Part shown: in pieces, positions 6,213 through 60,221 of the stretch
Layout of the letters: every line of letters begins with the position of its first letter
Numbering within the stretch: position 1 is the first letter of the stretch
Assembly (NCBI GenBank): GCA_903813345.2
Contig: CAIIXF020000009.1
Span: 19,803,759-19,867,758, forward strand
DNA length: 64,000 nucleotides
Direction of reading: 5' to 3'
Source: Owenia fusiformis
Taxonomy: Eukaryota; Annelida; Polychaeta; Sabellida; Oweniidae
Translations under genes and position numbers: made by a program
Notes under the pieces: model-generated
The model's database searches: none
The model's input: the letters and a program-made list of their open reading frames with translations, nothing else
What the model was told of the DNA's origin: nothing

Positions 6213-7400
6213 GCATTTTTATCCCACCGAACGAAGTTCGAGGGGGATATAGAGAAGCCGTCCGTCCGTCCTTCCGTTCGTCCGTGTGTCCAGGCGATAA
6301 CTCCAATACCGGTTGACGGATTTGGTTCAAATTTTATAGGCTTATGCCTTATGAGTGTAGGACCTCTGCTCGAGAAGGAATTTTCAATATGGCCGCTCAA
6401 TTCAAATGGCCGCCATTTTTCGTAACTCAAATACAAGTTGACGGATTTGGTTCAAATTTTATATGCTGATGCCTAGGGACAAGGTGTCACTCCTGTAAAT
6501 CATTGAAAAATATTGAAAAAAATCACAAAATTCAAGTTCTGGGGTACATATCGCCATTTTCGAACGAACTAGCCCATACAATGACTATATTTCTGCGTTC
6601 CCCTATACATAACCTTCATCTTGACACTATATTTAACATAGGGTTTGCGTCTCGATTTTTATATATCACTACGCCAACATAGGGACTCATTTTCAGGTAA
6701 AATCCCTGCTTCACCGATGAAAATTAACGAATAAAGTAGTTCCAGTTTACGGGACTATATTCTTGCGATTTTTTTCTTAAAATGACACATTTAGAAAGTA
6801 CTTGGCCTCAGCTTTACATACATACCTCACATGGCCACATTGCATACACGTAAACCTACTATACACACCATTCAATTTGGCTTACATGTAGCTTCGTTTT
6901 TAAAGTATTAAAAAACACTGTCCTACCTATTTACCGGAGTGACACCACAAAGGAGTTTCGCACAAAAAGAGATTTTCAAGATGGCCGCTTAATTTCAAAA
7001 TGGCGGCCATTTTTCGTAAAATATGTAATCTTTGATAACTCAAATACCAGTGAACGGATTTGGTTCAAATTTTATATGAGGATGCTTAGGGACACAGTAG
7101 CTATGTTTGACAAAACATTTTCAAGATGGCCGCTTAATTTCAAAATGGCGGCAATTTTTCGTAAAAAACGTAATCTTTGATAACTCAAATACCAGTGAAC
7201 AGATTTGGTTGAAATTTTATATGATTATGCCTAGGGACACAGTAGCTCTGTTCAAGAAATAATTTTCAAGATGGCGGCTGAATTTGAAGATGGCGGCCCA
7301 TATTCGTAAAAAACGTAATCTTTGATAACTCATATACCAGTGCACGGATTTGGTTCAAATTTTATATGATGATGCCTAGTTCACAATGGTATAAACTAAC
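6213..7400. repeat. Tandem ~145-bp repeat block with CCGTCC simple repeat
   Basis: After a (CCGT)-rich tract at 6255-6290, a unit containing AAGATGGCCGC, ATGGCGGCCATTTTTCGTAA and GGATTTGGTTCAAATTTTAT recurs. Clear unit starts are at about 6978, 7122 and 7267 (spacing 144-145 bp), with more diverged units upstream near 6300-6470. Both strands give open frames through the simple repeat, which are not genes. Related AAAATGGC blocks occur at 37650-39290 and 25550-26800, so this looks like a dispersed repeat family rather than a local satellite. Confidence 0.7.
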
Positions 7401-10165: not shown

Positions 10166-11175
10166 CTGATTTTTCTGATTGAATGGAATTTCGTTCTGCC
10201 AAAATACAAGCAAAATTATTATTATTTACAAGTATATACAAAGTCATGTTACAAAAATGGGTAATTTTTGTGTAGAATCCAGGTTGTCGTGCCTGTAAAG
10301 GAAATGGACGACATTTAGAGCACATCATGGAACACTCATAAAATCTAGATGAGCTAGTCATCTAAAACCTTTTGTTGAGTTGCTCCAGGGAGGCTATTTT
10401 AATGCCCATAACAAATCAGATATCACAAAGACAAAAAAGTTATGCAACATTATGTGGGAGTTTTATTGTTTTGTGTCACTCTGTATAACTATTTTTGACT
10501 TTACGATGGGTGATCGTGAAATTCCCAGAACGTGTTTCTCTTTTCAATAGCGTTCAATTTTAATGTGATTTCACACAATACATAGACTGACCAAAATAAT
10601 CCAGTAAAATATTTAGTAATAAAGAGAACTATTTAACAATAAATAGTTGCCATAGTTACCAAAACTCAATGGAGCTGGGCCAAATAAGAAAATTGAAGAA
10701 TGACGTATGATAACTTTATAAATACTTCTAGTTGATCACATCTTGAATTAAGAAAGACTAAAATACGACACAGGGCCTTCATGGGGCCTTCAAGTATACC
10801 TTAACACGCCCCACCTTAACCAACCAATTACATAATATTGAAACAATATATGGATGATGCAATGGTTGCTTCTCTCTAACCGTAGTAGCTGTGGAATATA
10901 GAACGTCGATGAAAGTTACTTGCATGTTTATTGCATTTACTGAGTTATAATATTATGTCTAAACCTAATAATAAGGATAGAACCTTGTACGTGAGCGTGT
11001 AATATTTCGAATCCCAGGGATTGCAGTCCCACTCTCAATTCACTTTCCTAGTGACTTAATTACAATCATTTTCGCCAGGTAAACACCACAAATGGAAGAA
11101 CTAATTAATCCATAGAGGACCATAATTCTCACCAATTCTACACGTTCTCGTACAAGTTTTTTTTCATCTATTTAC
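10166..11175. other. Region downstream of the opsin; terminal exon not found
   Basis: This stretch should contain the opsin C-terminal exon and 3' untranslated region, if they are separate from exon 5. I examined 10981-11175 on the minus strand and found no convincing acceptor followed by an open phase-0 frame. A terminus-like GTGTCACTCTGTATA at about 10475 resembles a mariner-type end without partner. Confidence 0.35.
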
Positions 11176-11294
11176 CTGGACTAACGACTTTCTCATTTTG
11201 TCGTGTAGAAATACATATATCACGGGGTTGTAACACGTAGACGTCTTCGCAAAGATTGAGGGTAGTGCTGCGCCCGTGAAGCTCACATGTTGAC
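11176..11294 (-). CDS. Opsin exon 5 (TM7 with retinal lysine)
   Basis: The acceptor TTTAAAG|GT completes Gly272. The exon encodes GQHVSFTGAALPSIFAKTST and CYNPVIYVFLHDKMRKSLVQ, with Lys288 as the chromophore attachment site and NPVIY at the base of TM7. The tripeptide after NPxxY is HDK, unlike NKQ of ciliary or HPK of rhabdomeric opsins. The donor CCAG|GTAAAT is phase 0. Without splicing the frame ends after only Val-Asn-Arg. Confidence 0.9.
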
Positions 11295-14200
11295 CTTTAA
11301 AGATATATGGCAAAAATTATTTTTCTTGAATTTGTAGATGTGTGCTCCTTTAACGCTCCTTCGAATGCATTTATGGATATGTTTTCACAATCTTTTGACT
11401 CTAATTCATTGCAATAAAGCTCGGGGAATATCGCCCATAACCGTCAATGTCTCGTGCGTACCTAGTACCACCATGAGGCTCATTACAGAGTAGGGCATCC
11501 ACGCTAGTAGGTAGCCCGACACAAGTAGAGCCGTCATTCTTACCAATCGCCACTCCCTGGAAGAGAAATTCATATGCAATAGACACTATATCTTTACATT
11601 TATTATTTTCAAATCATAGTTCTAATTTTACTTGCGCAATCACTTACTGTTTCATCAAGGACCTTGTTGTGTTCTCGCTGCTTTCAAAGACTACATTGTA
11701 GATAGTCTTCCGATACGTATTAAAGATTCTAGCATAGCAGAACAAGAGAATGCCAACTGGAATTAACACAGTGAAGACGAACAGACAGACCACGAATGAA
11801 TTGGTATTGTTGATGTTCCTTTCCCATGTGACGCTACACCAAGTGCCAGGACCTTCTGGACTGTAACTTGACCACCCGAAGATGGGGAAAATAGACCAGA
11901 TAATGCAGTATAGCCACGCAAGACAAGACATCAGAGTCGCTCTTTTTATTGTACTCTCTGGAGTTAAAAGTTGTATTAAAGTATAGTAACAATCACGCCC
12001 GATGATCGGTAAAGACAACATTGCTGAGAATAAATTGATAACAATTTCAAATTAATGTTATTGTACTTACTAATATCATGACATATGACACAGTAGCGAT
12101 CCACAGCAATCATCGCGTGTGTCACCAGCGAAACAAGACCAAAACATGTATTTGCAAAGCCGTACCTGAAAAAGGTAATAATAGACGTGAGAGTGTTTAC
12201 ATTGTCAGAATGTATTTAGAATTTGCCTCCTTTCCCCTCGTCTACACCGTCAAAAATAACAAATACGTAAAGCTCTCGTACGATACAAATTTGATTTTTG
12301 CCCCCTGTTTCCCTACAAATTAGATTTTATCATTATTCAATAAATACAATTTGTCGAGAATTCAAAACAAATCTGACACGTTTTCTAATGATCTTATTAT
12401 GTTATATAGTCGTATTTTTCGTTTTTTTGTAAACCGGGTACCGGGTACCAAGTTTGAACCCAGCATGGAGGATTTACTAGATAATATAGTAGAAAACCTG
12501 ATGGGTTAATATTTATTGATGAAAATGAGTTAATTTCTCGAGCAAAAGTTTAACCCTAAGGTGTTAGTTTATAATAAAATTGCGTTAGAGTGGGTTTCAA
12601 ACGACATATACGCAATCTTACAACAACACCATGAACACTGTGCACTGATTTTCGGCAACATGATTTCCTAAATACGACAGAAATACGAGCGACTTCTTGA
12701 TTTAGAATTGTGAACAATTTACAGCATTAAAAAACTCCGAACATTTAACTATTTTATTAAAGTCCCCGTGTAAAGTTTAAACCACTTTGGCTTATATTGT
12801 AGTCTTACCCAATGTTATTAAAGTGTGATATGTGAATTTTTTTTTTAAATTTCAAAAAGTGGTTTTTGATAGACTTTTTGTTCCAAAATTTGTGAATTTA
12901 TTTAAAACTAACTTTTAGAGGTCACATATATCTTTTAAATAGCCACAATTCATACCAATGCATAGCATTCATCCTCACATGTTTTTTGCCCAAAAAAATT
13001 GAGAAAATCGGTTCATAAATAAGCGAGAAATGAACTTATCAGTGCAAGAAAATGGTTCTGAGAAAAAGGCATTTCAAAATTTTAGTTCTCATAGAAACCA
13101 ATGGTACAATGATATCTAAAACATAATATATTTTTCTTTTTAATGTAATAAGACAATCAACATTGATTGATTATTGAAGTCTAGCATATCGAGAAAAGAT
13201 AGACACCGAAAAAAAAATATCAATTTTTTTCAAAAAGTTTTTGGTACCTTTGTGACATCACTAATGTTTCAAAATATTTTTGATATGCTAAAACATTGAA
13301 GTAGCCCATTAAATATGGCATTTTATTATTGAAATAGCGTGTCCTTTGTTCAATCTTTGCATTTGTGTTAAAAGGATAATCTTTTTTGAAATGCATTAAG
13401 AAATATTTGATGATTAAAAGATTTCAACTTTTTTTGAAAAATGGCGGGAAATTTGAATATTTGAGAAATGAAATGCTCACAACATTTTTTTGAAAAAAAT
13501 TTTTTTTTTCAAAAATCTCTAAAATAACTTTTTAAGGATGTTCCCTGGACGAAGTTGAAAACGATGAACACCAACCCCTAATTTTTCTTTTAAAAATGTG
13601 AAGTACATAGCATAACTAAGTGTTTCTGTGAGTTTAAGAAAAAGTTAAATATTCAAAAGTGTGTTTTGGGGTGAAAACCTGATTTTTAACATGGGTTTCA
13701 ATGAGAAAGTGCCACGCCCACTTTTGTCAAATATTGACACTTTAGAGGCCTCTTGCTCAGAAAAAAGCACACTAACATATGGTTTTTAAAGTTTTAATAT
13801 TCTTTGTTGCCCGTGAGAATCCCAGAAAACCATTTTTGAGAAAAAGTTAAATACTATTGAATATTTTCCTATCTGACCAGGGAACATCCTTAAGTCATGA
13901 CAAATAGTAAATGAATGATAAAAAAATATTTTCAAACTTTAGACGGGGACTTTAAAGAGAGAATCAGGGATAGCGAGCAGGCTAAACAAAAAATTGTTCC
14001 AAATTTAGAATATTTTTGGCTCATGTCATTCCTTGTCATATCTATTTTCTAAAAAATCACAAAAGTGCATACTTTATTCCAGGAAAACTAAAGATTTTTA
14101 CAATAATGTATTATTTTTCTATAAGAATGGTTACCATTCTTATTATTTGGGAGAATTTAAACATTTTTCACTCATTTTTGCACTATGAATCATAAATAAC

Positions 14201-15430
14201 TTCACCAATTTATAACATATTGTGAATCTTTTAGGAGATATTGTATTTGATATTGTAAGGAACAGATTGGTAGGTCAATTATACATGTTGCTTGTAATTT
14301 TGTCACCCCCTATAGATCAGATTCTGCCTTTAATATCTTCGGAGAACGAGAATCAAATTGACCCATCTTCACTTTTTGATATGTTTGGGTGTTTTCTAAG
14401 AGGTCCAGGTACAATTTAAAGATCTTAATCAGTTCAAAATTACAACCGCTTTAAAAGTAAGCATCCCTATTTATCAATACAATGCATTACAACACTGCAG
14501 ACATCTCCTTCACACGAGCCTTCATTTTTTTTAAATGATCTCTTGTTTAACACGTACATTGTTTTATTTGTTTCATATAATTGCTTTACGTATCATTTTA
14601 CTGGAATTATCTGCCCATTGCGTGCAGTTTACGGAGTTAAATTATTATTCATGCATAATTCTACTTATGTTAAAAGTAGGGAAAAAAGTCTACCCATTTT
14701 CAGGCCCAGTTGCGTTATGTTTGATAATCCTGTTACTAATTACCGATCTTATAGTGGGCGCGCGCCCACTCAAAGTTAGATATAAAATATGTTGAAATAT
14801 CGAAAAAACATTTGTTTATTGATGTAAGATAAGTCTGAAAATTATATTCCTGATCATTTCAAGATAAAAAATAATCAACATATATGATAATAGATATAAA
14901 ATATTTATTTTGATCATAAAATACGATTCCATGATTGAAACTTAATAAATAAAGAGGAATATTGAATTAGCATAAATCAAAGTAGATATAATTCGTATCT
15001 ACGCGAAATATTCCAAATCATTTTAATTAAAATGAAGATAGGGTTATAGAGAAAAATGTTTCTTCCACACGACAAAAGTAATATCTCTAGTTTAGTCATA
15101 CACCAGCATGGCTTACCAATGACAAAGCGTGAGTCCGAAAAGCCATCTCATAGCCAGACTCGATGACGCAGAGAAAGGGTTGCCAAAAACCGAGATTGCC
15201 AAATCGCTAATTGTCATCGATAGCAAATGCACATTTGAAGGAGTTCTCAGTTCTTTATTCTTCACGAATAAAATGATCACCATAGCATTTGTTGTCATGC
15301 CAATTATACCGATGAGTGCTATAACTAAACCCAATGTGGTATATGCAGCGTGGGACCATACATCGTCGGCTTCAGCCTGAGCATTTGTAATAGTCGACAG
15401 CGTGGTCGATTCACTCCAGTTACCTTCCAT
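11176..15430 (-). CDS. Opsin (retinal-binding G-protein-coupled receptor), five exons
   Basis: This gene encodes a seven-transmembrane light-sensing receptor of the plasma membrane. It should bind retinal and couple to a G protein. Exons at 15430-15117, 12165-12071, 11957-11648, 11556-11462 and 11294-11176 join with matching phases (2, 1, 2, 1) into 311 residues. An N-terminal NWS glycosylation site lies at residue 4 and TM1 at about 30-56. C103 and C177 form the expected disulphide. DRY is at 127-129, a TM6 AWMPY at 258-262, K288 is the Schiff-base lysine (FAKTSTCYNP) and NPVIY is at 294-298. E171 aligns with the ancestral counterion position 181, whereas the vertebrate 113 position is Tyr106. 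Residues such as WYGFAN and PEGPGTWC suggest a ciliary-type, TMT/encephalopsin or xenopsin-like subclass; this is inference. The C-terminal tail is unresolved. Confidence 0.93.
11462..11556 (-). CDS. Opsin exon 4 (TM6)
   Basis: The acceptor TCTTCCAG|G completes Gln240. The frame then gives EWRLVRMTALLVSGYLLAWM and PYSVMSLMVVL. This is the cytoplasmic end of TM6 with the rotamer-switch Trp259 and Pro261. The donor is CTAG|GTACGC, phase 1. The frame continues to a stop shortly after if unspliced, which supports the donor. Confidence 0.9.
11648..11957 (-). CDS. Opsin exon 3 (TM4, ECL2, TM5)
   Basis: The acceptor AACTCCAG|AG joins exon 2 to give Lys137. The exon encodes TM4 (about 144-163), the second extracellular loop with PEGPGTWC (Glu171 at the counterion-181 position, Cys177 for the disulphide), TM5 (about 191-212) and the third intracellular loop to Gln240. 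It ends at ACA|GTAAGTG, phase 2. The longer open frame upstream of 11957 is intron. Confidence 0.92.
12071..12165 (-). CDS. Opsin exon 2 (TM3 and DRY motif)
   Basis: This 95-nt exon lies between TTTTTCAG|G and TTA|GTAAGTAC. It completes Trp105 and encodes YGFANTCFGLVSLV, then AMIAVDRYCVICHDI, which is TM3 ending in the DRY G-protein contact. The spacing from Cys103 to DRY matches rhodopsin without gaps. Entry phase 2 and exit phase 1 agree with both neighbours. The overlapping plus-strand frame is not coding. Confidence 0.92.
12761..13951. mobile_element. TTAA-flanked inverted-repeat element in opsin intron 1
   Basis: The ends AGTCCCCGTGTAAAGTTT (left) and AGTCCCCGTCTAAAGTTT (right, reverse-complemented) are flanked by TTAA at 12757-12760 and 13952-13955. 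TTAA duplication is the hallmark of piggyBac and Kolobok elements; which of the two is undetermined. The interior is very A/T-rich with poly-A and poly-T tracts and has no transposase, so it is non-autonomous. A second TTAA element is nested in it. Confidence 0.75.
13536..13889. mobile_element. Nested TTAA-flanked MITE
   Basis: The ends GGATGTTCCCTGG and CCAGGGAACATCC are exact inverted copies, flanked by TTAA on each side (13532-13535 and 13890-13893). The 354-bp element lies within the TTAA element 12761-13951, so it inserted later. It has no coding capacity. Confidence 0.8.
13956..15116. other. Opsin intron 1, remaining AT-rich part
   Basis: This part of intron 1 shows no recognised exon or transposon ends. 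The open frames at 14222-14419 and 14535-14795 overlap one another in different frames and lack family resemblance or splice context. Confidence 0.5.
15117..15430 (-). CDS. Opsin exon 1 (N-terminus, TM1-TM2)
   Basis: The exon starts at ATG 15430, with an in-frame TAA two codons upstream, which fixes the start. It encodes residues 1-104 and two bases of Trp105. It contains the NWS sequon, TM1, the LRTPSN loop-1 motif, TM2 with Asp76 (D2.50) and Cys103. The donor is CATTG|GTAAGC, phase 2. The plus-strand open frame over it is a shadow. Confidence 0.92.
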
Positions 15431-15969: not shown

Positions 15970-16541
15970 ATCGCCCGGTATTCGGAAATATGGGACGGAG
16001 AGGGGGGCAGGCAAATTTTACTAGAGAAATTATGAAATCTGCAAGATTTTTCTTTTTCAGGAGAAAGTTCACAACTTGATTACTATATAAATGGGCGCAT
16101 GGTATGGTAAAATATGTTAGGTCTTCTATGCTTTTTTGAACCGACACTCTTCTAAGATACGAGATATCTTAAAAAGGCGCAACACCACCAACACGCACAA
16201 GCCAATGTTTTTGCTATGAATCAAGCAACGATGGTCTATGTGCATAAAGTCGGCTATGAAATTAATTTTGTGATGATAATGTCACTCACAAGTATTTATT
16301 ACAGGTCGTGTAGACCATTGTTGCTTGATTTATAGCAAAAACATTGACTTGTGCACGTTTAAGAGACATTGTGCCTTTTAAATAGATTTCATATCTTAGA
16401 CGCGTATGGGATCAAAAATCATTAACATATTTCACCATAACATGCGCCTATTTGTATAGTTAAACGTTCTCTTGAAAAATGACACTGTCATTTTTTTAGC
16501 AGAAATTGCATACTCCCACCTCCCAATCCGTCCCGATTTTC
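15970..16541. mobile_element. GGGACGG foldback element, copy 1
   Basis: Two ~270-bp arms are reverse complements. The left begins ATCGCCCGGTATTCGGAAAT, then TGGGACGG and a G-tract. The right ends with a C-rich stretch, CCGTCCCGAT. Shared internal blocks include GGCGCATGGTATGGTA, AATATGTTAGG and AAGCAACNATGGTC. The arms meet around 16250-16270 with almost no spacer. Other members are at 32761-33791 and, decayed, at 56650-57200. No coding potential. Confidence 0.8.
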
Positions 16542-18289: not shown

Positions 18290-18828
18290 CATTACAATAA
18301 TCCTAATCACTGTCTACAGACTTGCACTGTAACCATAACATTGTCTTTTGGAAAAAACGGACTTTAGAAAATTAATGAAACTTACTTCCTTAATAGACTG
18401 TCGTAATGTGCGACATTGTAGGTCACAATAGACAAAAATTCCGTGATAAGAATACACGAACGGACTACAAAAATCCTACGATCTTCTAAACTATATTGTG
18501 ATGAACAATATAATATCTGGAAAGCACCATGCTTTGCAAACCCTTATACCAACTGATCTCGTATTGCAACAAAGGCAAAATTACAATTCTTCGAAACGTT
18601 GTAAATCTAAATACTAGTACTATAAGATCTGTTTCATATAAAATGCAATTACTGTAGCTGACAAACACTTCTCTAAATGTCTTTGTCACACTAATAGAAC
18701 ACAACTACTGTAAATGTTGTTAAGGAACACCACTATCTTCTTAAAATACCAAAACTTGATGCCCTTCTGGAAATAGATATTACATATTATCCTATGCCAA
18801 GTAGAGTTTTAGGGAGATTAGTTGGTAA
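18290..18828. other. No feature recognised
   Basis: AT-rich sequence without a supported gene. Open frames on the minus strand here lack splice context or family resemblance. Confidence 0.4.
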
Positions 18829-19470
18829 CCCTACTATCACACCAAACTAGTTCTCACTGCGTTCTCGAAAACGGGCTTCAACTGTATACGAACGGACTGG
18901 ACCTACTAAGAACCGTTTGGGATCTATTTACAAACGTACGAACGTACTCGAACGGGTAGGTCCTCTAGAACTTAGACAATGCTCAAAATGTTCTCGTGGT
19001 CGTCACGTTCTACAATTAGAACGAGTGACAACGTACTAACGACGAGCTGGACGTACTACGAACGGAACCGTCGTACTTCAATCCTACTAGGGACGTTTTA
19101 ACAACGAGTTGAACTGTCTGAGGACGTGTTTAGAACGAGGTTGAACTAATGAACGTAGCTGCAATTTTTAAGGTCTATTTACGAACTTTATGAACGTTCT
19201 CAGACGGGAATGTGATTTTAGAATTTTGAATCGATTCAAAATTCGATGGCGACCATACCAGACTAAGGGACGCGTTCTACGACGTTGCACACCGACGTGG
19301 TGCGACCTGAACGAACTGCGAACGAGATGGACGTATTGAAAACTGTTTAAGAACGAAGAAGTTAATTATTTCAGACATATTTCCCGACCACAGCCAGATT
19401 GAGCCCGTTTTACGACGTTTTCGTAGGACTGGCAAGAACGGGTAAGAACTAGTTTGGTGTGATTGGGGGG
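18829..19470 (+). mobile_element. CTATCACACC MITE (PIF/Harbinger-like), copy A
   Basis: Ends CCCTACTATCACACCAAACT and (reverse complement) CCCCCCAATCACACCAAACT are flanked by TAA on both sides (18826-18828, 19471-19473). Three-base TWA duplications are typical of PIF/Harbinger. The interior carries dozens of GAACG/CGTTC and ACGTAC motifs, and a 24-bp palindrome centred on ATCGAT near 19230. Compared with copies B and C, a central part is deleted. The minus-strand open frames inside recur in other copies and are repeat shadows. Confidence 0.8.
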
Positions 19471-19827
19471 TAAGATATATCCCGTATCTTGATTTTGAGG
19501 TTTCCATATCCAGAACCTCCATATCTCCCGCCATATCTCCCGCTTCGGTGCATATCTTCCCGCTTCCGGTAATTTCACTTCACAATTATTTTTTCAAAAT
19601 TTTTTTTAGAATTATTTTTCACATTTTTTTCAAAATTTCTTTTTTCAAATTTTTGGATATTGTTAAACAACACTTTTGTATTTCAAAAAGTTATCAATGT
19701 ATTTAAAATTTAAAAGTGGAAATGCAATAAAATGACTTTGCATATGAATGATTTGTTTGTTTTTACACATTGTACTATTCAAATGGCCATATGCCCCTGA
19801 AAACTCTACTTGGTATAGGATAAAGCA

Positions 19828-21613: not shown

Positions 21614-22076
21614 CACTGATGATCCAATCGATTACGCTGGAACCGTTTCGGTAAAAAAAATGTCGGAACGTCGAAGGTACTTTTTTCCTTATTTCACACG
21701 TTGTAGGCAGAATTTCCACGACATTTTTATCCCAAACGTGTATCAGTATCATATGTTTAAGAAAATGTACACATTTGCGAACAAATAGTTCAGAAGACAG
21801 CGGAATCGTCGATTCAATTCCTCACTTAAGTTACATAAACGGTATTTCGAAAAACAGTTAAGATCTGCTCTTTTAACTCAAGCTATTTTGTCGCAATCAT
21901 GTACATTTTCTAAAACATATCATACTGATACACGTTTGTGAGAAAAAATGTTGAAGGTATTCTGCCTACGACTCGTGAAATAAGGAAAAAAGAAAAATCG
22001 TACCTTCGACGTTCCGACATTTTGTTACCAAAACGAACCGTTTCGGTAACCAGCGTAATCGAGCGGATCACCAGTT
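21614..22076. mobile_element. CACTG-ended foldback element, copy 1
   Basis: The left end CACTGATGATCCAATCGATT and the right end, reverse-complemented AACTGGTGATCCGCTCGATT, are followed by ACG, GGTAACC and TGTCGGAACGT blocks. Flanking TGTTT occurs at 21609-21613 and 22077-22081, a 5-bp target duplication. Arms of ~200 bp extend almost to the centre. The plus-strand open frame at its right end is repeat-derived. Confidence 0.8.
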
Positions 22077-22668: not shown

Positions 22669-23205
22669 CACTGGTGATCCGCTCGATTACGCTGGTTACC
22701 GAAACGGTTCGTTTTGGTAACAAAATGTCGGAACGTCAAAGGTACGATTTTTCTTTTTTCCTTATTTCACGCGTTGTAGGCAGAATCCCCACGACGTTTT
22801 TTCACACAAACGTGTATCAGTATCATTTGTTTTAGAAAATGTACATGTTTGCGAAAAAATAGCTCAAAAGAGAACAGAATCGTCGATTTAATTCCTCACT
22901 TAAGTTACATAAACGATTTGGGTCAAAAGTGCAGATCTTAACTGTTTTTCGAAAAACCGTTTATGTAACTTAAGTGAGGAATTAAATCGACGATTCTGTT
23001 GTCTTCTGAACTATTTGTTCGCAAATATGTAAATTTTCTTAAACATATGATACTGATACACGTTTGTATTAAAAATGTCATAGGAATTCTGCCTACGTGA
23101 CGCGTAAAATGAGGAAAAGAGAAAAATCGTACCTTCGATGTTCCGACATTTTGTTACCAAAACGAACCGTTTTGGTAACCAGAGTAATCGAGTGGATCAC
23201 CGGTG
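22669..23205. mobile_element. CACTG-ended foldback element, copy 2
   Basis: CACTGGTGATCCGCTCGATT at the left and its reverse complement at the right bound 537 bp. The flanks carry TCAGT on both sides (22664-22668, 23206-23210). The two ~250-bp arms include TTACCGAAACGGTTCGTTTT, AAAATGTCGGAACGT, TTATTTCACGCGTTGTAGGC and CGTGTATCAGTATCAT. The centre is a short TTTGGGTCAAAAGTGCAGAT spacer. Confidence 0.85.
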
Positions 23206-26810: not shown

Positions 26811-26862
26811 AAGTTTTTTTTCCAGATTTTTATTGATAAGATATTTCTTGTTGCCTTCCTTA

Positions 26863-27668
26863 CCCCCCTATCACACCAAACTAGTTCTTACCCGTTCTTG
26901 CCAGTCCTACGAAATCGTCGTAAAACGGGCTCAATCTGGCTGTGGTCGAAAAGTATGTCTAAAATAATTAGCTACTTCGTTCATAAACAGTCTTCAATAC
27001 GTCCATCTCATTCGCAGTTCGTTCAGGTCGCACCACGTCGGTGTGCAACGTCGTATAACGCGTCCCTTAGTGTAGAAGGTCATCATGACCTGATTACAGA
27101 ACGGTATGATCGCCATCGAATTTTGAATCGATTCAAAATTCTAAATCACATTCCCCGTCCGGGAAAGTCCATGAAGTTCGTAAACAGACCGTAGAACGTT
27201 GTAGCCGTTCGCACACAGTTTAAAACCAGTTTTGAAGAACGCAGTGGCAACTTGCTTGGTGTGATAGCATTATTTTTGCTAACTCGTTGATAAATACGTT
27301 CTTAATCAGTTTTAACCCGTTTACAATTAGAAACTTCTACCCCGTTCTCAATACGTCCTCAGACAGTTCAACTCGTTGTGAAAAAACGTCCGTAGTAGGA
27401 TTGAAGTTCGACGGTTCTGTTCGTAGTACGTCCAGCTCGTCGTTAGAAGGTTGTCACTCGTTCTAATTGTAGAACGTGACGACCAAGAGAACATTTTGAG
27501 CATGTTCTAAGTTCTAGAGGACCTACCCGTTCGAGTACGTTCGATGAAGTTTGTAAATAGACCCCAAACGGTTCTAAGTACGTCCAGTCCGTTGGTACAC
27601 GGTTGCAGCCCGTTTTCGAGAACATAGTGAGAACATTAACTACATTGTACTTTGGTGTGATAGCAGGG
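26863..27668 (-). mobile_element. CTATCACACC MITE (PIF/Harbinger-like), copy B
   Basis: The element is flanked by TTA at 26860-26862 and 27669-27671. It starts CCCCCCTATCACACCAAACT and ends with GGTGTGATAGCAGGG. It lies in the opposite orientation to copies A, C and D. An internal GGTGTGATAGC at about 27256 followed by TTTTTGCTAACTCGTT marks a fused second end, so the longest form of the family is a head-to-tail composite. The palindrome centred on ATCGAT is at about 27130. Open frames are repeat shadows. Confidence 0.8.
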
Positions 27669-28322: not shown

Positions 28323-29386
28323 CGAGGGTTGTCCCATAAGTCTTGAAATTTTTATTCTAATTCAAAAAGATTTTAATGAATCTTGCTGAAAATTGGTATG
28401 TATCAAGATCAATCAATTATCTTCAACATGTGATAGTTTCAAAACAAAATTATGAACTTAAGTAACTATTATGGTTGCTATGGTAACCAGGGGAGTCGTG
28501 GGGTGGGGCAGTAATGAAATATAGTAAAAATGTAAAATGGAGCCATGGGATTATTATGGATTTTAAAGGATGGTATGCATCTTAAATTGTGAATCACCTG
28601 TCAAGATTGACAAAAGCACTGTATTCTTGGTAAAATCTTATGAAATACCTCTGTGATGTCATAATAAACTAGCACAATTGCTCAATTTGGTACAGAGGCA
28701 CAGCATTTAGAAAATCAAAATGGCAGGGATTTTGTCACCAGATGTTCAATCTTTGCGTACAGTTGTGCAATACCACGCCTCCTTAGGGCATACACCTACA
28801 CAAACAAGAACAGCCATGGAAAAAGTATAAAGACAGTAAACTCCGAGTGCCCCTACAATATGGAGGTGGCAGAAGAAGTTAAAAACTGGAGATACCAGCC
28901 TGGAGGATGCTCCTAGAAGTGGAAGGCCAAAATCCAGTGACGATCTCATATCACACATTGCAGAGAGTATAAGGGCTGAAAGGAGAACTAATCAGTGTAG
29001 GAATATCGCCCTAGACTTTGATATTAGTAAGAGTACTGCTCACAGAGTGATGAAGAAAGACCTTGGGATGTCAAAGGTAGCCCCTAGATTCGTTCCACAT
29101 ATTCTGACAGAGGAGCAGAAAAGGCAACGTGTTGAGCTGAACCAGGGGTTCCCAAATCCTTAATTTTTACGTCATATTTGTATTTTTTATCCTGTTTTCT
29201 GCCCCGGGTACCCCCAACATTCCATTTTAAATCATCTGTAACATTGCCAAATGATCTTACTATGCTATGAAACTTACAGAGATAGTAGAAATATATCTAA
29301 GTTACAAAATGTGAAATTTTTATTATTGTATCTCAAATATTCTATGAATTAGAATAAAAATTTCAAGACTTATGGGACAACCCTCG
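28323..29386 (+). mobile_element. Mariner-type transposon relic, internally deleted
   Basis: Nearly perfect inverted ends (CGAGGGTTGTCCCATAAGTC, continuing through TTGAAATTTTTATTCTAATTC) bound 1064 bp, flanked by TA at 28321-28322 and 29387-29388. It retains the N-terminal DNA-binding half of a mariner transposase but not the catalytic half. It is therefore a defective copy that would need a transposase supplied elsewhere to move. Confidence 0.92.
28720..29163 (+). pseudogene. Mariner transposase N-terminal fragment, pseudogene
   Basis: From ATG 28720 one frame reads MAGILSPDVQSLRTVVQYHA and onward to TAA 29161, interrupted by in-frame TAA codons at 28828 and 28837. The later part has TSLEDAPRSGRPKSS, a helix-turn-helix with DISKSTAHRVMKKDLGMSKV, and FVPHILTEEQKRQRVEL. 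These match the paired-like DNA-binding region and linker of mariner transposases (LEDEPRSGRP and WVPRLLT-type motifs). The catalytic DDD triad domain is absent; the frame ends soon after the linker. A minus-strand open frame here is a shadow. Confidence 0.88.
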
Positions 29387-30022: not shown

Positions 30023-32760
30023 TTCAATTTCAATTTCAATTTATTAAATATATATGCATACAACAATACAAAATTGATGAAGGGAGCGAGACACCACTGA
30101 AAGGTGTATGGTGCCCCCTGTAACAATAAAAAATTCATATGAATTAGCAATTGAAGATGACAAATAGGTATATGAATGGAAAAAATCCTTGAACAATTAT
30201 ATTAAGTAAAAAAGGTTTTGTTCCTGCGATTTCAGCTATGATACAAAGCTGTTTTGGTCTCCTCCCAATGTCCCCGTTTCCTGATATAGTTGGTGTTCAT
30301 GCTAAAGATAAAAAACAAAGATAAGAATTCTTGAGATCAAAAGTGCCAGAAAATGCCAAATGGAATGGTGCGTTGGGAATTTTATTGTAATCAAACAACA
30401 TGTGAGCACCTCAAAGTCTTGGTTGTGGCTGAGTTAATAGATGATGAAAATATTTTGATTTGAATAATTTTTCTGAGTTCAATGATCTTATATTCTCGGG
30501 GATTGAATTCCAGATGGTTTTGCCTTGAGGGCTAATAGAGAATTTGCCTATGTTTGTGTTAAACTTGGGGCCTCTCAGGTCAAATTTGTTTCTTGTGTCG
30601 CGGTCATGGATGCTATAATTGGTTGTAAAGTAAGAAGAATAAAGATCATCCATTAGGTCATTATTGCCCTTTACACATTTGAAAACAAATAAAGCAATTC
30701 TCAACTTAACAATTTGATGAATATTTAGCAATTTATGTTCAATAAAGAGTGGTTTAGTTGGATCTCTATAGTGATGAGATTTATCGAGCATACGTATAAA
30801 CTGTTTTTGAATTGAATGAAGCTTATTTAAGAGAGTTTCAGGCACACATCCCCACATTATTATGTCAGAATTAAAATTGGAGTAAATAAGGGAGTAATAG
30901 AGAGTTTTAAGACTTGCAATATCCAGTAGATGTTTGACTTTATGCAATGTTCCAATAGTTTTTGATAATTTATTTTCAAGCATATGAATATGATGTTTCC
31001 AATTCAGTCTGTCATCAATAGTTGCACCAAGGAAATTGATTTTTTCAGTTTGTTCAACAATATTATTATCCATGATGATTTTATTTGAGATGTTATAGTT
31101 ATGTCTATTGTTTTGGGTTTTAAAGTGAATAAATTTAGTTTTTGAATTTGTTAGCTTTGAACCACTGATTTACATGTATGAGTTCATTGTTCAAGATTTT
31201 ACATAGGGTGTTTAGATTTTGATGACCAACTAAAATATTTGTGTCATCTGCATACAGAATCATGTCAAGTTTTTCAGAACAAAGATGTATATCATCCATG
31301 TAGATTATAAAAAGCAATGGTCCTAAAATTGAGCCTTGAGGAACGCCACATGATGTTGTTTGTTTATTAGATGAATTAGTATTGTTATATGTCACATATT
31401 GTTTACGGTCGGACAAGTCACTTTTAAACCATTGTGAAGAAATACCACGAATGCCATAAAAACCCAATTTTTGTAATAAGATGCTGTGATCTAGGGTATC
31501 AAAAGCCTTAGACAGGTCTAGGAATAATCCAATACAATGAGTTTTAGTTTCAAGAAAAGTTCTTATTTTTTCAACAAAATTCAAAATGGCCATAGAAGTA
31601 GATCGATTTTTCCTAAATCCATATTGCTGTTTGTAGAGGATCTTGTATTTTTCGAGATATTTAGAAAGTCTATTATACATCAGTCGTTCAAGAAGTTTTG
31701 AAAAAAATAGAGAGCAGAGATATTGGCCTGTAATTAGCAAACTGATCTTTTTTCCCTTTTTTAAAAATTGGGATAACCTTAGCAACTTTTAAAGAGTTGG
31801 GAAAGAGTCCCTTGGAAAAAGATAAATTAAAAATGTGAGTAAGAGGGGAAACAATTGCTTCACCACATGTTTTTATGAGTTTTGGTTTTATGTCGTCGTC
31901 ACCTGATGCAGAGTCCTTCAGCTCCTTGATAAGTTTAGAAAGTTCAAAATGAGTTACAGGTGACAAAAACATGGAGTTAACATTTCTTTTTAGTTTACTC
32001 ATAAGCTCAGCAGGTGATTTATCAGCATTTCCTATTTTTTTTAGCCAAGGTGGCACCAACAGAGGCAAAATATTCATTGAAAGTATTTGAAATTTTTGTA
32101 TCATCAGATATTTTAGAGTTAGATATAGGACAAATAAAAGAGTCACATAAATTAAGATTTTTCTTTTTTTCTTTTTTCTGGCTAGAATTTCATTAAGTGA
32201 GTTCCAGGTTTTTTTATATTGTTTCTAGCATTAGCTATTCTATCAGAGTAATATAGTTTTTCAGAATGTTTTAGTATTTGTTTGAAATTTTTCTTGTATA
32301 CTTTGTATTCTTTAAGTTTATATGGAGTAGGATCTTTTAAATATTGTTTATACAGTTTGTTTTTCTTTTTTGATGGAGTTACAATACCAACAGTTATCCA
32401 GGGTTTGGAGTTATTCTTTATCATTTTAATTGTTTTAGTTGAAATTGGAAAGCTCTCATTATATTTAGTTTCGAGCAAGGTCTGGAAATTGGAGCAGGCA
32501 AGGTCTGGACTGGTTGTCTCATTTAATACACTTTCCCAGTTGGTGTTTTCTAATGAATGTTTAAACTGTTGGATATTGGGATCATTCATAATTCTAAATT
32601 GTATTTGCTTGGTAATTTTTTGAGTTAAAATTCTTTCAGTTAACACATATACTCTTCGATGGGATGTTTTAATTGATATAGGCATATTCCGTACACCTTT
32701 CTTTATCTTGATGTGAAATGAGAAGCTATGATATTGGTTAACACGCCAGAAATGAACATA
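30023..32760 (-). mobile_element. 5'-truncated LINE (CR1/Jockey-like non-LTR retrotransposon)
   Basis: On the minus strand the element runs from the region just before reverse transcriptase to a 3' tail of about three TTGAAA repeats (30023-30043). The upstream endonuclease domain is missing, as in incomplete target-primed insertions. The 5' break falls somewhere in about 32700-32760, immediately beside the end of a foldback element at 32761. Clade assignment (CR1/Jockey-like) rests on motif style only. Confidence 0.88.
30411..32700 (-). pseudogene. LINE reverse transcriptase, frameshifted pseudogene
   Basis: Four minus-strand frames together cover one polyprotein region in order. A pre-RT linker (to about 32182) has KPWITVGI. 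RT motifs start with IPIFKKGKKDQFANYRPISL (about 31720-31790). Next come YGFRKNRST, FLDLSKAFDTLDH and GVPQGSILGPLLF (about 31330), and the catalytic YADD at 31243-31254. After these come the thumb region with FLGATIDDRLNWKHHI, and the C-terminal part to 30411. Frame changes near 32150, 31710 and 31135 inactivate it. It would have copied element RNA into DNA at the nick site. Plus-strand frames across it are shadows. Confidence 0.9.
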
Positions 32761-33791
32761 ATCACGCCCGGTGATCGTGAATATGGGACGGAGGGGGGGG
32801 GGGGGGGAGCAGGCAATTTCTGCTAGGAAATTCAACAAATCTGGAAGATTTATTTTTTCAAGAAAAAGTTTACAATTGAATTGCTAAATGGATAGGCGCA
32901 CGGTATGGTAGAATATGTTAGGTTTTCTGGGATTTTTTCTGAAACGATACGCATCTAAGGTATGAGATCTATTAAAAAAGGCGCAAGGCCATCAACAGGC
33001 ACAAATCGACGTTTTTGCTATAAGCCAAGCAACAATGGTCTGGACGACCTGTAATAAATACTTGTAAGTGATGTTATCATAACTAAATTAATGTCATTGC
33101 TGAATTTATAAAATAAGTTTCCATATGTGAAATAAAAAATAATCGAAAATAATGAATTTGGGACGGAGGGGGGGGGGGGAGGGGACGGAGGGGGGGGAGC
33201 AATATGTATATAAGACACGATTAGAGAAGTTTCGCGACTTTAAGTCCTTTTACTCCAAATGTCCCCATTTTTCAGTCTCCAGGGGTATATCATCCAGTTT
33301 CTTACTAAATTAATGAGTTCATTTTTCAAATACAACAATTCGTGTGAATTTGTTTCACTTTATAGAATTATTACTCCCCCCCCTCCGTCCCCTCCCCCCC
33401 CCCCCTCCGTCCCATTTTAATTATTTTCGATTATTTTTTATTTTACGTATGGAAATTCAGCAATGACATTAATTTAGTTATGATAACATCACTTACAAGT
33501 ATTTATTACAGGTCGTGTAGTCCATTGTTGCTTGATTTATAGCAAAAACGTTGATTTGTGCCTGTTGATGGCCTTGCGCCTTTTTTAATAGATCTCATAC
33601 CTTAGATGCGTATCGTTTCAGAAAAAAATCCCAGAAAACCTAACATATTCTACCATACCGTGCGCCTATCCATTTAGCAATTCAATAGTAAACTTTTCTT
33701 GAAAAAATAAATCTTCCAGATTTGATGAATTTCCTAGCAGAAATTGCCTGCTCCCCCCCTCCGTCCCATATTCACGATCACCGGGTGTGAT
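32761..33791. mobile_element. GGGACGG foldback element, copy 2 (long arms)
   Basis: Arms of ~420 bp (about 32761-33197 and 33374-33791) are reverse complements. The outer ends are ATCACGCCCGGTGATCGTGA and its near-complement, then TGGGACGGAGG with a poly-G run. The inner arm ends carry a second GGGACGG plus G-tract. The spacer is ~175 bp. The proline- and glycine-like peptides predicted here translate the G/C tracts and are not real. Confidence 0.85.
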
Positions 33792-34011: not shown

Positions 34012-34432
34012 CACTGGTGATCCGCTCGATTACACGTTTCGGTAACAAAATGTCGGAACGTGGAAGGTACGATTTTTCTTTTTTCCTTATTTCACGTGTT
34101 GTAGGCAGAATTCCCACGACATTTTTCTCACAAACGTGTATCAGTATCATATGAATAAGAAAATGCACATGTTTGCGAACAAATAGTTCAGAAGACAACA
34201 AAATCGTCCATTTGATTCCTCACTTAAGTCACATAAAAGGAATTTCGAAAAACATTTAAGAACTGCACATTTAACCCATTCCGTTTATGTAACTTAAGTG
34301 AGGCATTAAATCGACGATTCTGTGTTTGTGAGAAAAATGTCGTGGGGATTCTGCCTACAACGCGTGAAATAAGGAAAAGAGAAAAATCGTACCTTCGTCG
34401 TTGCGACATCGTAATCGAGCGGATCACCAGTG
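34012..34432. mobile_element. CACTG-ended foldback element, copy 3
   Basis: CACTGGTGATCCGCTCGATT at the left is complemented by the right end at 34432. Flanks are CTCGTG and TTCGTG, a 5-bp match with one neighbouring mismatch. Arms share TGTCGGAACGT (TTGCGACAT on the right), TTATTTCACGTGTTGTAGGC and the ~30-base TCACTTAAGTNACATAAA segment. This copy lacks the GGTAACC block of copy 2. Confidence 0.8.
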
Positions 34433-37639: not shown

Positions 37640-38160
37640 CGTCAAATGGTTATCCTAAAAATGAGTAGACAAGACTTTACCGACACAATTTGAGGACGGA
37701 AAATCCAAAATGGCCACCTTAAAATTTACCAAGAATGCCAAAAAATTAGTCAGTTCTAAATTTTCATACTAAGAACCACCGCTGAAATTTTGAAATTGAT
37801 CCGTCACACAGTTAACCAGAAAACCTGTAAACAAGACTTTACAGACAATATTTGAGGACAGAAAATCCAAAATGGCTGCCTTGACATTTATCCAGAATGC
37901 CAAAAAACTAATCTGTTCCAGATTTTCATACTAAGAATCATCCCTGAAAATATGAAATTGATCTACCAAACGGTTCACCTGGAAATGTGTAGACAAGACT
38001 TTGCAAACAAGATTTTAGGACACAAAATCCAAAATGGCTGCCTTGACATTTACCCAGAATGCCCAACAAGGCACAGGACGTGAACGAGATCACACCATCA
38101 AATAGGCAGACACTATGAACCAGGAAAACTGTTCTCCTATTATGTCTACAAATTTCAAGA
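37640..38160. repeat. ~150-bp tandem repeats, AAAATGGCTGCC family
   Basis: Units contain GAAAATCCAAAATGGC, TTGACATTTANCCAGAATGC, CATACTAAGAATCATCCCTG, GAAATTGATC and AGACAAGACTTTACAGACAA. About three units lie here, and the family resumes at 38815-39290. Confidence 0.7.
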
Positions 38161-38715
38161 ACAAGAAAACAAGATGGCCGCCCAAAAGTTAATCAGCTCT
38201 AGTACTTGATATCCTCTATCATTTGTGTAAATATGAAGGAAATCCGATGAGCGGTTTTCCTGAAATGGCGATGACAAGATTTTTCGAAAAACCTTCAAAA
38301 TGGCCACCAGAAAACAAGATGGCCGCCCAAAAGTTAATCAGCTCTAGAACTTGATATCCTCTATCATGCGTGTAAATTTGAAGGAAATCCGATGAGCGGA
38401 TTTTCTGAAATGGCGATGACAAGATTTTTCGAAAAATCTTCAAAATGGCTGCCAGAAAACAAGATGGCCACCCAAAAGTTAATCAGCTCTAGTACTTGAT
38501 ATCCTCTATCATTTGTGTAAATTTGAAGGAAATCCGATGAGCGGTTTTCCTAAAATGGCGATGACAAGATTTTTCGAAAAACCTTCAAAATGGCCACCAG
38601 AAAACAAGATGGCCACCCAAAAGTTAATCAGCTCTAGTACTTCATATGCTCTATCATCTCTGCGAATTTGGAGAAAATCTGATGAGCAGTTTTCCTTAAA
38701 CGGCGATGACAAAAA
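38160..38715. repeat. ~145-bp tandem repeats, GGAAATCCGATGAGCGG family
   Basis: About four units contain AACAAGATGGCCNCCCAAAA, TTAATCAGCTCTAGTACTTG, TATCCTCTATCAT, GGAAATCCGATGAGCGG and GCGATGACAAGATTTTTCG. The similar minus-strand peptides predicted at 38219-38443 and 38509-38712 arise from neighbouring units. Confidence 0.75.
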
Positions 38716-38790: not shown

Positions 38791-38814
38791 CTATATCCCA
38801 CCGATGGTGTGATA

Positions 38815-39290
38815 AAAACTAATCAGATCTAGATTTTCATATTAAGAATCATACCTGAAAATTTGAAATTGATCTACCAAACAGTTCACCTAAAAACGCG
38901 TAGACAAGACTTTACGGGCAAGATTTTAAGACGGAAAATCCAAAATGGCTGCCTTGACATTTATCCAGAATGCCAAAAAACTAATCAGATCTAGATTTTC
39001 ATACTAAAAATCATCCCTGAAAATTTGAAATTGATCTACCAAACGGTTCACCTGGAAATGCGTAGACAAGACTTTACAGACAAGATTTTAGGACGGAAAA
39101 TCCAAAATGGCTGCCTTGACATTTACCCAGAATGCCCAAAAACTAATCAGATCTAGATTTACATACTAAGAATCATCCCTGAAAATTTGAAATTGATCTA
39201 CCAAACGGTTCACCTGAAAACGCGTAGACAAGACTTTACAGACAAGATTTTAGGACGGAAAAATCCAAAATGGCCGACAATAAAAAAGTG
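38815..39290. repeat. ~150-bp tandem repeats, second block of the AAAATGGCTGCC family
   Basis: Three units are nearly regular, each with CTAATCAGATCTAGATTT, AAATTTGAAATTGATCTACC, ACGGTTCACCTG and GTAGACAAGACTTTAC. They are more alike than the units in 37640-38160, suggesting recent local amplification. Confidence 0.75.
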
Positions 39291-42535: not shown

Positions 42536-43600
42536 ATATTTCACCTTACCTGACCTCTAACCTTATCTGACCTCTCAACTCAACTAACATTACACTCCCA
42601 AATACCCCCACAGTTTGAAATTTCACCCAACCTGACTTCTAACCTTATCTGACCTCTCAACTCAACTAAAATTACACTCCCAAATACCCCCATAGTTTGA
42701 CATTTCACCTAACCTGACCTCTAACCTTAATCTCCCAAATACCCACACAGATTGACATTTCACCTAACCTGACCTCTAACCTTATCTGGCCTCTCAACTC
42801 AACTAACATTACACTCCCAAATACCCACACAGTTTGACATTTCACCTAACCTGACCTCTAACCTTATCTGGCCTCTCAACTCAACTAACATTACACTCCC
42901 AAATACCCACACAGTTTGACATTTCACCTAACCTGACTTCTAACCTTATCTGACCTCTCAACTAACATTACACTCCCAAATACCCACACAGTTTGACATT
43001 TCACCTAACCTGACCTCTAACCTTATCTGGCCTCTCAACTCAACTAACATTACACTCCCAAATACCCACACAGTTTGACATTTCACCTAACCTGACTTCT
43101 AACCTTATCTGACCTCTCAACTAACATTACACTCCCAGATACCCACACAGTTTGACATTTCACCTAACCTGACCTCTAACCTTATCTGGCCTCTCAACTT
43201 AACTAACATTACACTCCCAAATACCCCCACAGTTTGACATTTCACCTAACCTGACCTCTAACCTTATCTGACCTCTCAACTCAACTAACATTACACTCCC
43301 AAATACCCCCACAGTTTGACATTTCACCTAACCTGACCTCTAACCTTATCTGGCCTCTCAACTCAACTAACATTACACTCCCAAATACTCCCACAGTTTG
43401 ACATTTCACCTAACCTGACCTCTAACCTTTTCTGACCTCTCAACTCAACTAACATCACACTCCCAAATACCCACACAGTTTGACATTTCACCTTACCCGA
43501 TCTCTCACCTCATCTGACCTCTCAACTCAACTAACATTACACTCCCAAATACCCACACAGTTTGACATTTCACCTAACCTGACCTCTCACCTCGACTGAC
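42536..43600. repeat. 82-bp minisatellite, about 13 copies
   Basis: The unit reads CACAGTTTGACATTTCACCT, then AACCTGACCTCTAACCTTAT, CTGGCCTCTCAACTCAACTA and ACATTACACTCCCAAATACC. Most units are 82 bp. Some lack five bases in the CTCAACTCAACTA part (77 bp), and one is largely deleted near 42720. Units differ mainly by TGGCCT/TGACCT and CCCACA/CCCCCA, with an apparent higher-order alternation of these variants. The strand is strikingly G-poor and pyrimidine/adenine-rich. Confidence 0.9.
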
Positions 43601-46221
43601 GTTTCTTCTCGCCCTATATTTTCATTATTGACCTTATTTAATTTGAATGATGCTGTCATATCTCCAATGGCCAAACTATTAATTGGGTGTTCCTATAATT
43701 TTATGGAACGCGCATTTTATCTCGTGCAGATAACCCTACTTCCATTCTCGGTGTTGTAGAGTGACGTCTCGATTATTGAGTGGATGCAATAATAGAACAA
43801 CTATATTAGGGAGCTGTCCAAGAAGGATTGGTCCCAAGACCTCCAAATCGATATTCGACCTTGACCATGATCGACGACAACATTGAAAATATCGTTATTT
43901 TCAGACATTATAACTAACTATAAATTCACAATCACCGATCCAAAAGATTTGAACTAATATTTTGATCATTTCTTGTGTGTTATGAATTTTTTGTTCGGAA
44001 ATAAGATCAAAACTCTGGGAGCCTATCCTCGAGTTGTCCATGGATTGCAGATGTATGATTGTGCTTTGTATCACCATCTAACACAATTAAAACAGGACCG
44101 TATTCAGTTTTAAATCAGTGTTTTATTATTTTGTTTCGAATTCTTCAACAATTCATAACTTATGAACAGTGTAAAGAATAGGCAATGTCATAGTGTTTGA
44201 GTTTAAAATAGTCTATTGTTATTTACTATTCTTGAATAACGCCACGAGTAATAACTAATAAGTGTAGTTTCGTCATCAAATAACAAAAAAGAACACAACG
44301 GGGCGAATTCACAATTACAATTCATGAAATCGATAACAAACAAAACAGGAAGAGCAATTCCTAATGTAACAGAATTAGAATAAGAGCAGCGATAGTAGTT
44401 GCTTCTGCCGAAGATATCTCTGGCAGAAGATGAGGAGCTGCAGGCATAATCGCAGAATTCGTGCGCTTTTTACCACTGAAGACGTCGTTTGCTGTTTCTA
44501 GCAATATTCTCTTAACGTGTAGTATCCAGTGGATAAGTAACGTTTTAAACTAATCATTGAGCACTACTGGCGCTCTGCGGCACCGTAAACTATTCCAATT
44601 GTAAGAAAGCGATAACACAAGATGTTGTGATGATGACCAGTGGCGAATTATTGATGAAACAAGAAAGGTGATCGCTCCGATTTATTACTCCCACAAACGA
44701 AAAAAGGTAAGTTGCAAACTTGATTCTAATTTCAAATAAGTTATATTTGTAATTTTATAATTGTTCGGTATAGTTGATGTATTACAGACTAAATTAAGAT
44801 TTTACATATTGTTTAAACCAAATTGAGCGAAAAATAAATCCGATTTGACAGGCGCATGGTATGGTATATAACAGTATAAGTTGTGATTATTTGGAGAAAT
44901 TTGTTTCTTGCTATCGCAATAAAGATGTTGAAATTCTACCTGCAACACATGGTATGTCCCACATAAGGTTCAATTTACTTCCAAACCTTGAAGGTAAACA
45001 CACAATTAGACATAATTTCACCAACCAGATGGATTAACGTGCCATTTAGAACAAACCTAATTGATTTTTTCCTTTTTGTTGGTTTAATATTAATATTTTA
45101 TTTTGTAATCACTTATTGAGAGCCACTGTTCTGTTTTTACATAAATCTCGTCGATTTAAGCATTACGCACGTTCAAATCCTGCAAGCTGGTGCAAAATAA
45201 ATTGATTGTGCACTTAGACCTTTTAAACTAAATTTGATTTAAAAAAAGTCAAATATTAATATTGAATTTGCCAATCCAGGCAAGAACCTTGAAGATAATT
45301 CAGAAAAAATCGAATAAGACAATAACAAAATGCATAACCTATACTGTTCTTCATAAGTTTGGAACATTCGATCCTTATAAACCAATCATTTGTGAAGAGA
45401 ACATTTGTTAACATTTTCGCTGCCGAGGCATAAAATTAACTTTTTCTTAACAACGATGGAATGTTCTTGATTTTTCTAGGCAGATATAATTTGAGAAAAA
45501 AACGTTTTCAATTGAGTATTCTCTCGCATTTTAGTCGTACACAAGATCTCTTTGGAAAAACTTCACATATAAACATTATCAAATAGTTGAGGCATCTATC
45601 GATCACTTTTGTTTATATTACGTCGCTACAAGATTACGTAAAATATTAATTTACTCTGATAGAAAGAGTAACATGTAAGGATGCTATGTGGTTGATGGCT
45701 CAATTCATTTATTTGTATTGATTTTTCACAAATGATAAAATTGCATACACAGATTACACAGTACATGTATACAGTAAAATACAAAACAATATTATATAAC
45801 AATATAATATGAGCCACTACATAATATCTAAAGTAAGATTGATGATATCTGGTGCACGTTTTGAAATGAGTGTAACGTTTGGCAGCTGTAGTGTTTTTAT
45901 GATTGACACTTGTCAGCGCGAACAGGTTTCGACTGATAGTTATATTTATGCCAAACACAAAGAAGTTCTCACATGTGTGAATGAAAGCCATGGATATTTT
46001 CATACGCGTGTTGCATTTTTTGGACCACCCTGTATATGTCTTTGAGCAGTTTCTGACAAAGTGACAATTTCTATATAGAGTGAAAACGATCGAGACTTAG
46101 GTATACCTAATTGTTGCCAAGGGGGTTGTGAATCGATCATACATAGTAATATCATACATCGAGTTGTCCTGTTTGTGTATATAGAAGGTCAACAATATCA
46201 TAACTCTTGAAGGAGTCATTA
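43601..46221. other. No gene seen; unpaired mariner-like terminus
   Basis: Near 46013-46035 TTGCATTTTTTGGACCACCC, followed by TGTA, resembles the reverse complement of the terminus at 5671, with no left partner found. At about 44838-44870 a scrap of the GGGACGG foldback family (GGCGCATGGTATGGTA) is present. Open frames here show no recognisable domain. Confidence 0.4.
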
Positions 46222-46410
46222 CACTGGTGATCTGCTCGATTGCGCTGGTTACCGAAACGATTCGTTTCTCGTTTCTGTAGTAAAAAATGTCGGAACCTCA
46301 AAGGTTCGATTTTTCTTCTTTCCTTATTTCACGCGTTGTAGGTAGAATTCCCACAATATTTTTATCACAAATGTTTTTCATTATCATATCTTTCAGAGAA
46401 CGTACATATT
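46222..46410. mobile_element. CACTG-ended foldback element, solo left arm
   Basis: CACTGGTGATCTGCTCGATT begins a single arm that follows copy 2 through the GGTTACCGAAACG, AAAATGTCGGAAC, TTATTTCACGCGTTGTAGG and ATCATAT blocks, then stops near 46410. No right arm follows, so it is a truncated member. Confidence 0.75.
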
Positions 46411-60070: not shown

Positions 60071-60221
60071 TAATGACATTTTGTAGTCTCTTTTAATGTC
60101 ATGAATGCGCCATTGTTTGGCCCATCATGAAAATACTTGGGCATTCTGGTCCTGACATTCAAACTAAGTGACTGTTAACGAAAGCTAAGGCTACTAGAAC
60201 GAGTAGGTCCTCCAGCACTTA

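Follow-up and report, generated by a model that had tools for sequence, protein, structure and literature searches.

We analysed a stretch of 64,000 nucleotides of the Owenia fusiformis genome (GCA_903813345.2, contig CAIIXF020000009.1, positions 19,803,759 to 19,867,758; here called the window) and found that it carries a real, apparently intact animal opsin gene at 11176-15430 on the minus strand, a strand that the preliminary description of this DNA had not given. At even confidence, our best guess is an intact opsin of the Go type or another tetraopsin (group 4), whose HDK tripeptide is a variant of the pattern HxK. The receptor probably falls outside the sampled crowns of the ciliary opsins (c-opsins) and the rhabdomeric opsins (r-opsins). 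Overall, the gene seems to belong to the known opsin family and not to a new kind, and nothing novel about it was demonstrated.

The assignment to the opsins was clear. The best match in a phmmer search of PDB was a rhodopsin with an E-value of 8.6 × 10−53, and opsins or opsin chimeras were the first 31 of the 60 best matches listed, with 595 distinct sequences passing 10−5. The first non-opsin among the matches listed was a galanin receptor at 94.4 bits, and Pfam 7tm_1 was found with an E-value of 2.3 × 10−47. Judged by sequence comparison, the homology to opsins is far beyond chance. On bovine rhodopsin, K288 corresponds to position 296, E171 to 181, Y106 to 113, C103 and C177 to 110 and 187, D127-R128-Y129 to 134-136, W259 to 265, N294-P-V-I-Y298 to 302-306, and H302-D303-K304 to 310-312. 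The protein combines a rhodopsin-family receptor of seven transmembrane helices (TM) with a lysine at 296, as animal (type 2) opsins do. The earlier identification of Glu171 with position 181 and Tyr106 with 113, an ancestral-type counterion arrangement, was borne out on this map, as was HDK following NPVIY.

Our guess of a Go-type tetraopsin with Go/Gi coupling comes from three weak clues, namely the HxK pattern, a short stretch between W265 and K296, and a loop 3 unlike that of r-opsins. The stretch from W265 to K296 has 30 residues and, among 12 reference opsins, is matched only by scallop Go, while nine have 32, one has 31, and one has 33. Loop 3 (Y223-M257) has 41 residues compared with 47-49 in all four r-opsins and 43 in scallop Go. 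In such a receptor, retinal would form a Schiff base with K288, with E171 (E181) as the stabilising counterion of the ancestral type; light would then cause a rearrangement by which DRY, NPVIY, and helix 8 activate a heterotrimeric G protein, serving non-visual light sensing through Go/Gi. E181 is described as the counterion in peropsins, retinochrome, and the amphioxus Go-opsin (PMC4289182). For the Owenia protein, the gene model, the key residues, and the homology to opsins are shown, and we infer retinal binding, expression, the role of E181 as counterion, the identity of the G protein, and the class.

Several points weigh against a Go-type assignment. Ten of the 12 reference sequences were provisional transcriptions rather than database entries, and the set includes a single Go-opsin, a thin basis; bathyopsins, chaopsins, xenopsins, cnidopsins, anthozoan opsins, and TMT opsins are not represented in it. 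The scallop Go of this set carries NAN and not HxK. By phmmer, squid rhodopsin (179.5 bits), OPN3 (173.1), OPN4 (171.7), and RRH (167.7) all outscored scallop Go (162.8), which was followed by pinopsin (161.8), OPN5 (143.4), kumopsin (140.7), bovine rhodopsin (132.0), Rh1 (116.1), RGR (84.5), and retinochrome (61.9). In a tree of 11 rows, the grouping of the query with scallop Go was neither preferred nor rejected (log-likelihood, lnL, 3.7 lower; p of the approximately unbiased test, p-AU, 0.27). A grouping with the three tetraopsin rows was neither supported nor rejected (p-AU 0.32), and the best tree set the query beside the c-opsins, likewise unsupported (41/9).

The preliminary description had proposed placing the translation in an opsin phylogeny. 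Run with 13 and with 11 rows, this left the query beyond the crowns of the c-opsins and r-opsins sampled, and no class was fixed. In the tree of 13 rows, the r-opsin clade (support 99/98) and the c-opsin clade (95/91) both left out the query, for which no partner gained support; the best tree joined it to the c-opsins (56/37), and groupings with the r-opsins (p-AU 0.41) and with the five tetraopsin rows (p-AU 0.21) were not rejected. Removal of two long rows left the tree of 11, with four r-opsins, three c-opsins, and three tetraopsins, in which the query was again outside the r-opsins (99/97) and the c-opsins (95/92). Ten groupings were examined in this tree, and the p-values of both trees are uncorrected; groupings with RRH and with OPN5 gave p-AU of 0.38 and 0.15. 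Little is excluded by these data except a position within the r-opsin or c-opsin crowns as sampled.

An r-opsin-type (Gq) receptor, with HDK as a proline-to-aspartate variant of HPK, is unlikely in our judgement, even though the highest scores point that way. The top PDB matches listed, presumably squid rhodopsin and then kumopsin, reached 182.7 bits compared with 132 for the best-placed bovine-type rows, and a position as sister of all four r-opsins was not rejected in the tree of 11 rows (p-AU 0.44). HxK is, moreover, the classical r-type pattern, and minor groups may carry it too (PMC4289182). On the other hand, the four sampled r-opsins form their clade without the query, loop 3 is short, and joining the query to squid rhodopsin alone cost 16.4 lnL units (p-AU 0.042) and to OPN4 alone 14.9 (p-AU 0.043), both uncorrected over the ten groupings.

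Intron positions bear on a second suggestion of the preliminary description, that loop 2 and TM3 resemble TMT/encephalopsin or xenopsin relatives. Protostome c-opsins, encephalopsins, TMT opsins, and vertebrate visual opsins are reported to have three introns in common in position and phase, while xenopsins have two other conserved introns, the first of them near the second c-opsin intron (PMC5648526; PMC7529461). On the bovine map, the introns of the Owenia gene lie at 112 (phase 2), about 147 (phase 1), 246 (phase 2), 278 (phase 1), and 319 (phase 0, the donor of exon 5), the position near 147 varying with how a shortened loop is aligned. Rhodopsin introns, placed from human RHO coding exon lengths of 361, 169, 166, 240, and 111, are at 121 (phase 1), 177 (phase 2), 232 (phase 0), and 312 (phase 0). 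The intron comparison that had been proposed gave no agreement with these positions for any of the five introns, and none was found between bovine 147 and 246, where a xenopsin-type first intron (near 177) would be expected. Because the c-opsin positions carry no intron here, we disfavour the TMT/encephalopsin reading; the gene structure weighs against a xenopsin too, less directly. A receptor of either kind is rather improbable. In its favour, OPN3 was the second-best reference at 173 bits, loop 2 has 24 residues in the query as in OPN3 (and RGR), and the best trees set the query beside the three c-opsins, unsupported; against it, besides the introns, a grouping with OPN3 alone had a p-AU of 0.056.

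The tripeptide, set against NKQ and HPK in the preliminary description, had been read there as a possible mark of a divergent subclass with altered coupling, a reading that found no support. Among the 12 references, mostly provisional transcriptions, the tripeptides were IRK, NKQ, NKQ, HPK (four rows), DYK, NKK, NEM, NAN, and TAR. HDK matches the HxK but not the HPK form of the r-opsin tripeptide, and it stands in place of the NxQ that is typical of, but not universal in, c-opsins. A scaphopod Go-opsin, itself without K296, carries HMK (PMC6800502), and a paper on Nematostella gives HMK as the canonical r-opsin tripeptide and HKQ for a box jellyfish opsin (PMC10512536). According to the same paper, citing earlier work, swapping the tripeptide of the box jellyfish opsin altered the response dynamics and did not inactivate Gs signalling. 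HxK is a recorded pattern; compared by motif, HDK is an HxK variant within the spread of the reference tripeptides and, in our reading, no new coupling signature. In open-licence full text, we found no paper with an opsin carrying an HDK tripeptide and none with the opsin peptide AKTSTCYNP.

Membership of a small ancient clade, as a bathyopsin or chaopsin (echinopsin A/B), or of a cnidarian-type class (cnidopsin or anthozoan-specific opsin, ASO) is possible, though we regard it as doubtful. The close scores to r-opsin, c-opsin, and tetraopsin references and the absence of a firm placement are consistent with it. One report makes bathyopsins the sister group of c-opsins (PMC10733189), beside which the query stood, unsupported, in the best trees, and bathyopsins conserve their own introns (PMC5648526). 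The published motifs, however, differ. Amphiura opsin 5 carries NxQ (PMC4289182) and is a chaopsin (PMC6233551), and two chiton bathyopsins carry NSR/NST. In Nematostella, both ASO-I genes and five of 12 cnidopsins are intronless, and ASO-II genes are said to share the ciliary-opsin intron structure (PMC10512536). These clades were weighed by their descriptions and not by sequence.

That the gene represents a lineage separate from every described class, marked by a distinct intron pattern, HxK, a short loop 2, and a short third extracellular loop, is quite improbable. The failed placement does not argue for a new class, because any invertebrate class with poor sampling could give the same picture against such references. 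If such a lineage were real, it would be a further ancient animal opsin or a lineage-specific one with unusual coupling.

Five exons join to 933 bases encoding 311 residues without a stop, with GT/AG borders and intron phases of 2, 1, 2, and 1. The preliminary description had the joining in phase, K288, and the coordinates exactly right. Exon 1 (15117-15430, minus) begins with the start codon at 15430, two codons downstream of an in-frame stop, and encodes the N-terminus with the sequon NWS, TM1, TM2, and the start of TM3 to C103-H-W; it ends in phase 2 at codon 105, with the donor gtaagcca. It is separated by intron 1 (12166-15116, 2951 bp) from exon 2 (12071-12165, minus; acceptor ...ctttttcag, donor gtaagtac), which encodes the rest of TM3 with Y106 and DRY and ends in phase 1. 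Exon 3 (11648-11957, minus; acceptor ...aactccag, donor gtaagtga, phase 2) carries loop 2, TM4, the second extracellular loop with E171 and C177, TM5, and loop 3. Exon 4 (11462-11556, minus; acceptor ...ctcttccag, donor gtacgcac, phase 1) carries TM6 with W259, and exon 5 (11176-11294, minus; acceptor ...tctttaaag, donor gtaaatag, phase 0) carries TM7 with K288, NPVIY, HDK, and helix 8. The remaining introns have 113, 91, and 167 bp, and the guanine-cytosine (GC) content is 0.43-0.53 in exons compared with 0.28-0.36 in introns.

An alternative in-phase acceptor of exon 3, with 12023 as the first exon base, would lengthen loop 2 by 22 residues to a protein of 333 amino acids. This form was set aside, as it scored 7.1 to 17.5 bits below the short form against all 12 reference opsins. 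A tblastn search of the window for a second opsin copy returned the known exons and three further matches with E-values of 3.6 to 9.6, and tRNA and Rfam scans of the window gave no hits. Upstream of the gene, at 16190-16359, there is an inverted repeat whose 49-base arms are 90% complementary and 72 bases apart; the overlapping segment 15974-16238 is related to 33518-33785 (80%).

The description of a full seven-helix opsin stood for the seven helices, but the C-terminal end is open at the donor of exon 5. The 311 residues stop at the end of exon 5, where CAG|gtaaat makes a good phase-0 donor. The protein is incomplete as modelled: the model lacks a tail exon, or else the donor is unused and a stop follows three codons on. 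In the latter case, read-through into 11164-11175 (minus) would add V, N, and R before the stop, giving 314 amino acids, and an AATAAA lies at 10932 on the minus strand, about 230 bases past that stop. We scanned the minus strand from 11175 down to 4000 for phase-0 acceptors behind a pyrimidine-rich tract followed by a single last exon of 8-150 codons; inspection by eye of the best 25 by codon score revealed no convincing opsin-tail exon, although these filters could miss a real one. The ill-fitting TM7 tail remarked on earlier may come from the model ending at the 11176 donor. Folding of the stretch from TM7 to helix 8 (43 residues) gave one helix with a mean predicted local distance difference test score (pLDDT) of 65.8, which carries no weight. 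A decaying or mis-modelled opsin copy could be suspected from the failure of this simple scan and from a gene model built from DNA alone. It is very improbable, as 311 codons run without a stop or frameshift, the splice borders are canonical, the key residues are kept, and the exons are richer in GC than the introns.

Elsewhere in the window, four overlapping open reading frames (ORFs) lie at 30414-32883 on the minus strand, with neighbours in different frames; one of them contains a reverse transcriptase domain (RVT_1, E-value 1.3 × 10−27), and we take them to be the remains of a non-LTR (long terminal repeat) retrotransposon. A fragment with HTH_32 (28840-29160, plus; E-value 1.3 × 10−6, below the curated cut-off) presumably resembles the helix-turn-helix part of a mariner/Tc1-like transposase. 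A satellite-like array with an 82-base unit occupies 42538-43592, its main row (42721-43592) holding 10.8 copies with 93% matches. Further tandem arrays were found at 6972-7379 (unit of 145 bases), 37665-38063 (162), 38164-38712 (145), and 38814-39274 (162). A dispersed repeat family, 89-94% identical and in both orientations, comprises 26860-27634 and 59293-60073 with related pieces at 18828-19147 and 19260-19474. The segments 22669-23205 (87%) and 21644-22035 (75%) match themselves in reverse, have relatives at 34035-34409 and 46221-46423, and are foldback-like or resemble miniature inverted-repeat transposable elements (MITEs).

Searches for relatives covered viral or prokaryotic collections and are silent on rarity in animals. 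In viral contigs, two stretches matched the pattern by protein and 88 by alignment, in genome contigs 48 by protein and 19 by alignment, none of which was confirmed, and phages gave no match by tblastn. The gene contributes one more opsin whose mapped exons can serve classification by introns. Should it prove to be a bathyopsin or chaopsin, it would enlarge sparse clades, for which four and seven sequences, respectively, are given for a study discussed by PMC9368030, and would inform the opsin repertoire of the bilaterian ancestor. Taken by itself, HDK is no demonstration of new coupling.

Compared with known systems, the query resembles bathyopsins and chaopsins in belonging to no classical class with the references used, and differs from their published tripeptides (NSR/NST and NxQ), being set apart from them by description only. 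With OPN3 it shares 34% identity and the length of loop 2. It differs from OPN3 and TMT c-opsins in carrying HDK instead of IRK (OPN3) or NKQ and in lacking introns at the c-opsin positions used here; positions 181 and 113, D and D in the OPN3 reference, are E and Y in the query. The r-opsins squid rhodopsin and melanopsin share with it the highest scores (35% identity to squid), HxK, and Y113/E181, whereas HDK in place of HPK, the shorter loop 3, and the position outside the r-opsin clade set it apart. From scallop Go the query differs by an identity of 31%, by the NAN tripeptide and CRY for DRY of that provisional sequence, and by not being grouped with it in the trees, while with Go-opsins (group 4, tetraopsins) it has in common K296, E181, Y113 (as in scallop Go), an HxK form, as HMK in one Go-opsin, and the short stretch between W265 and K296.

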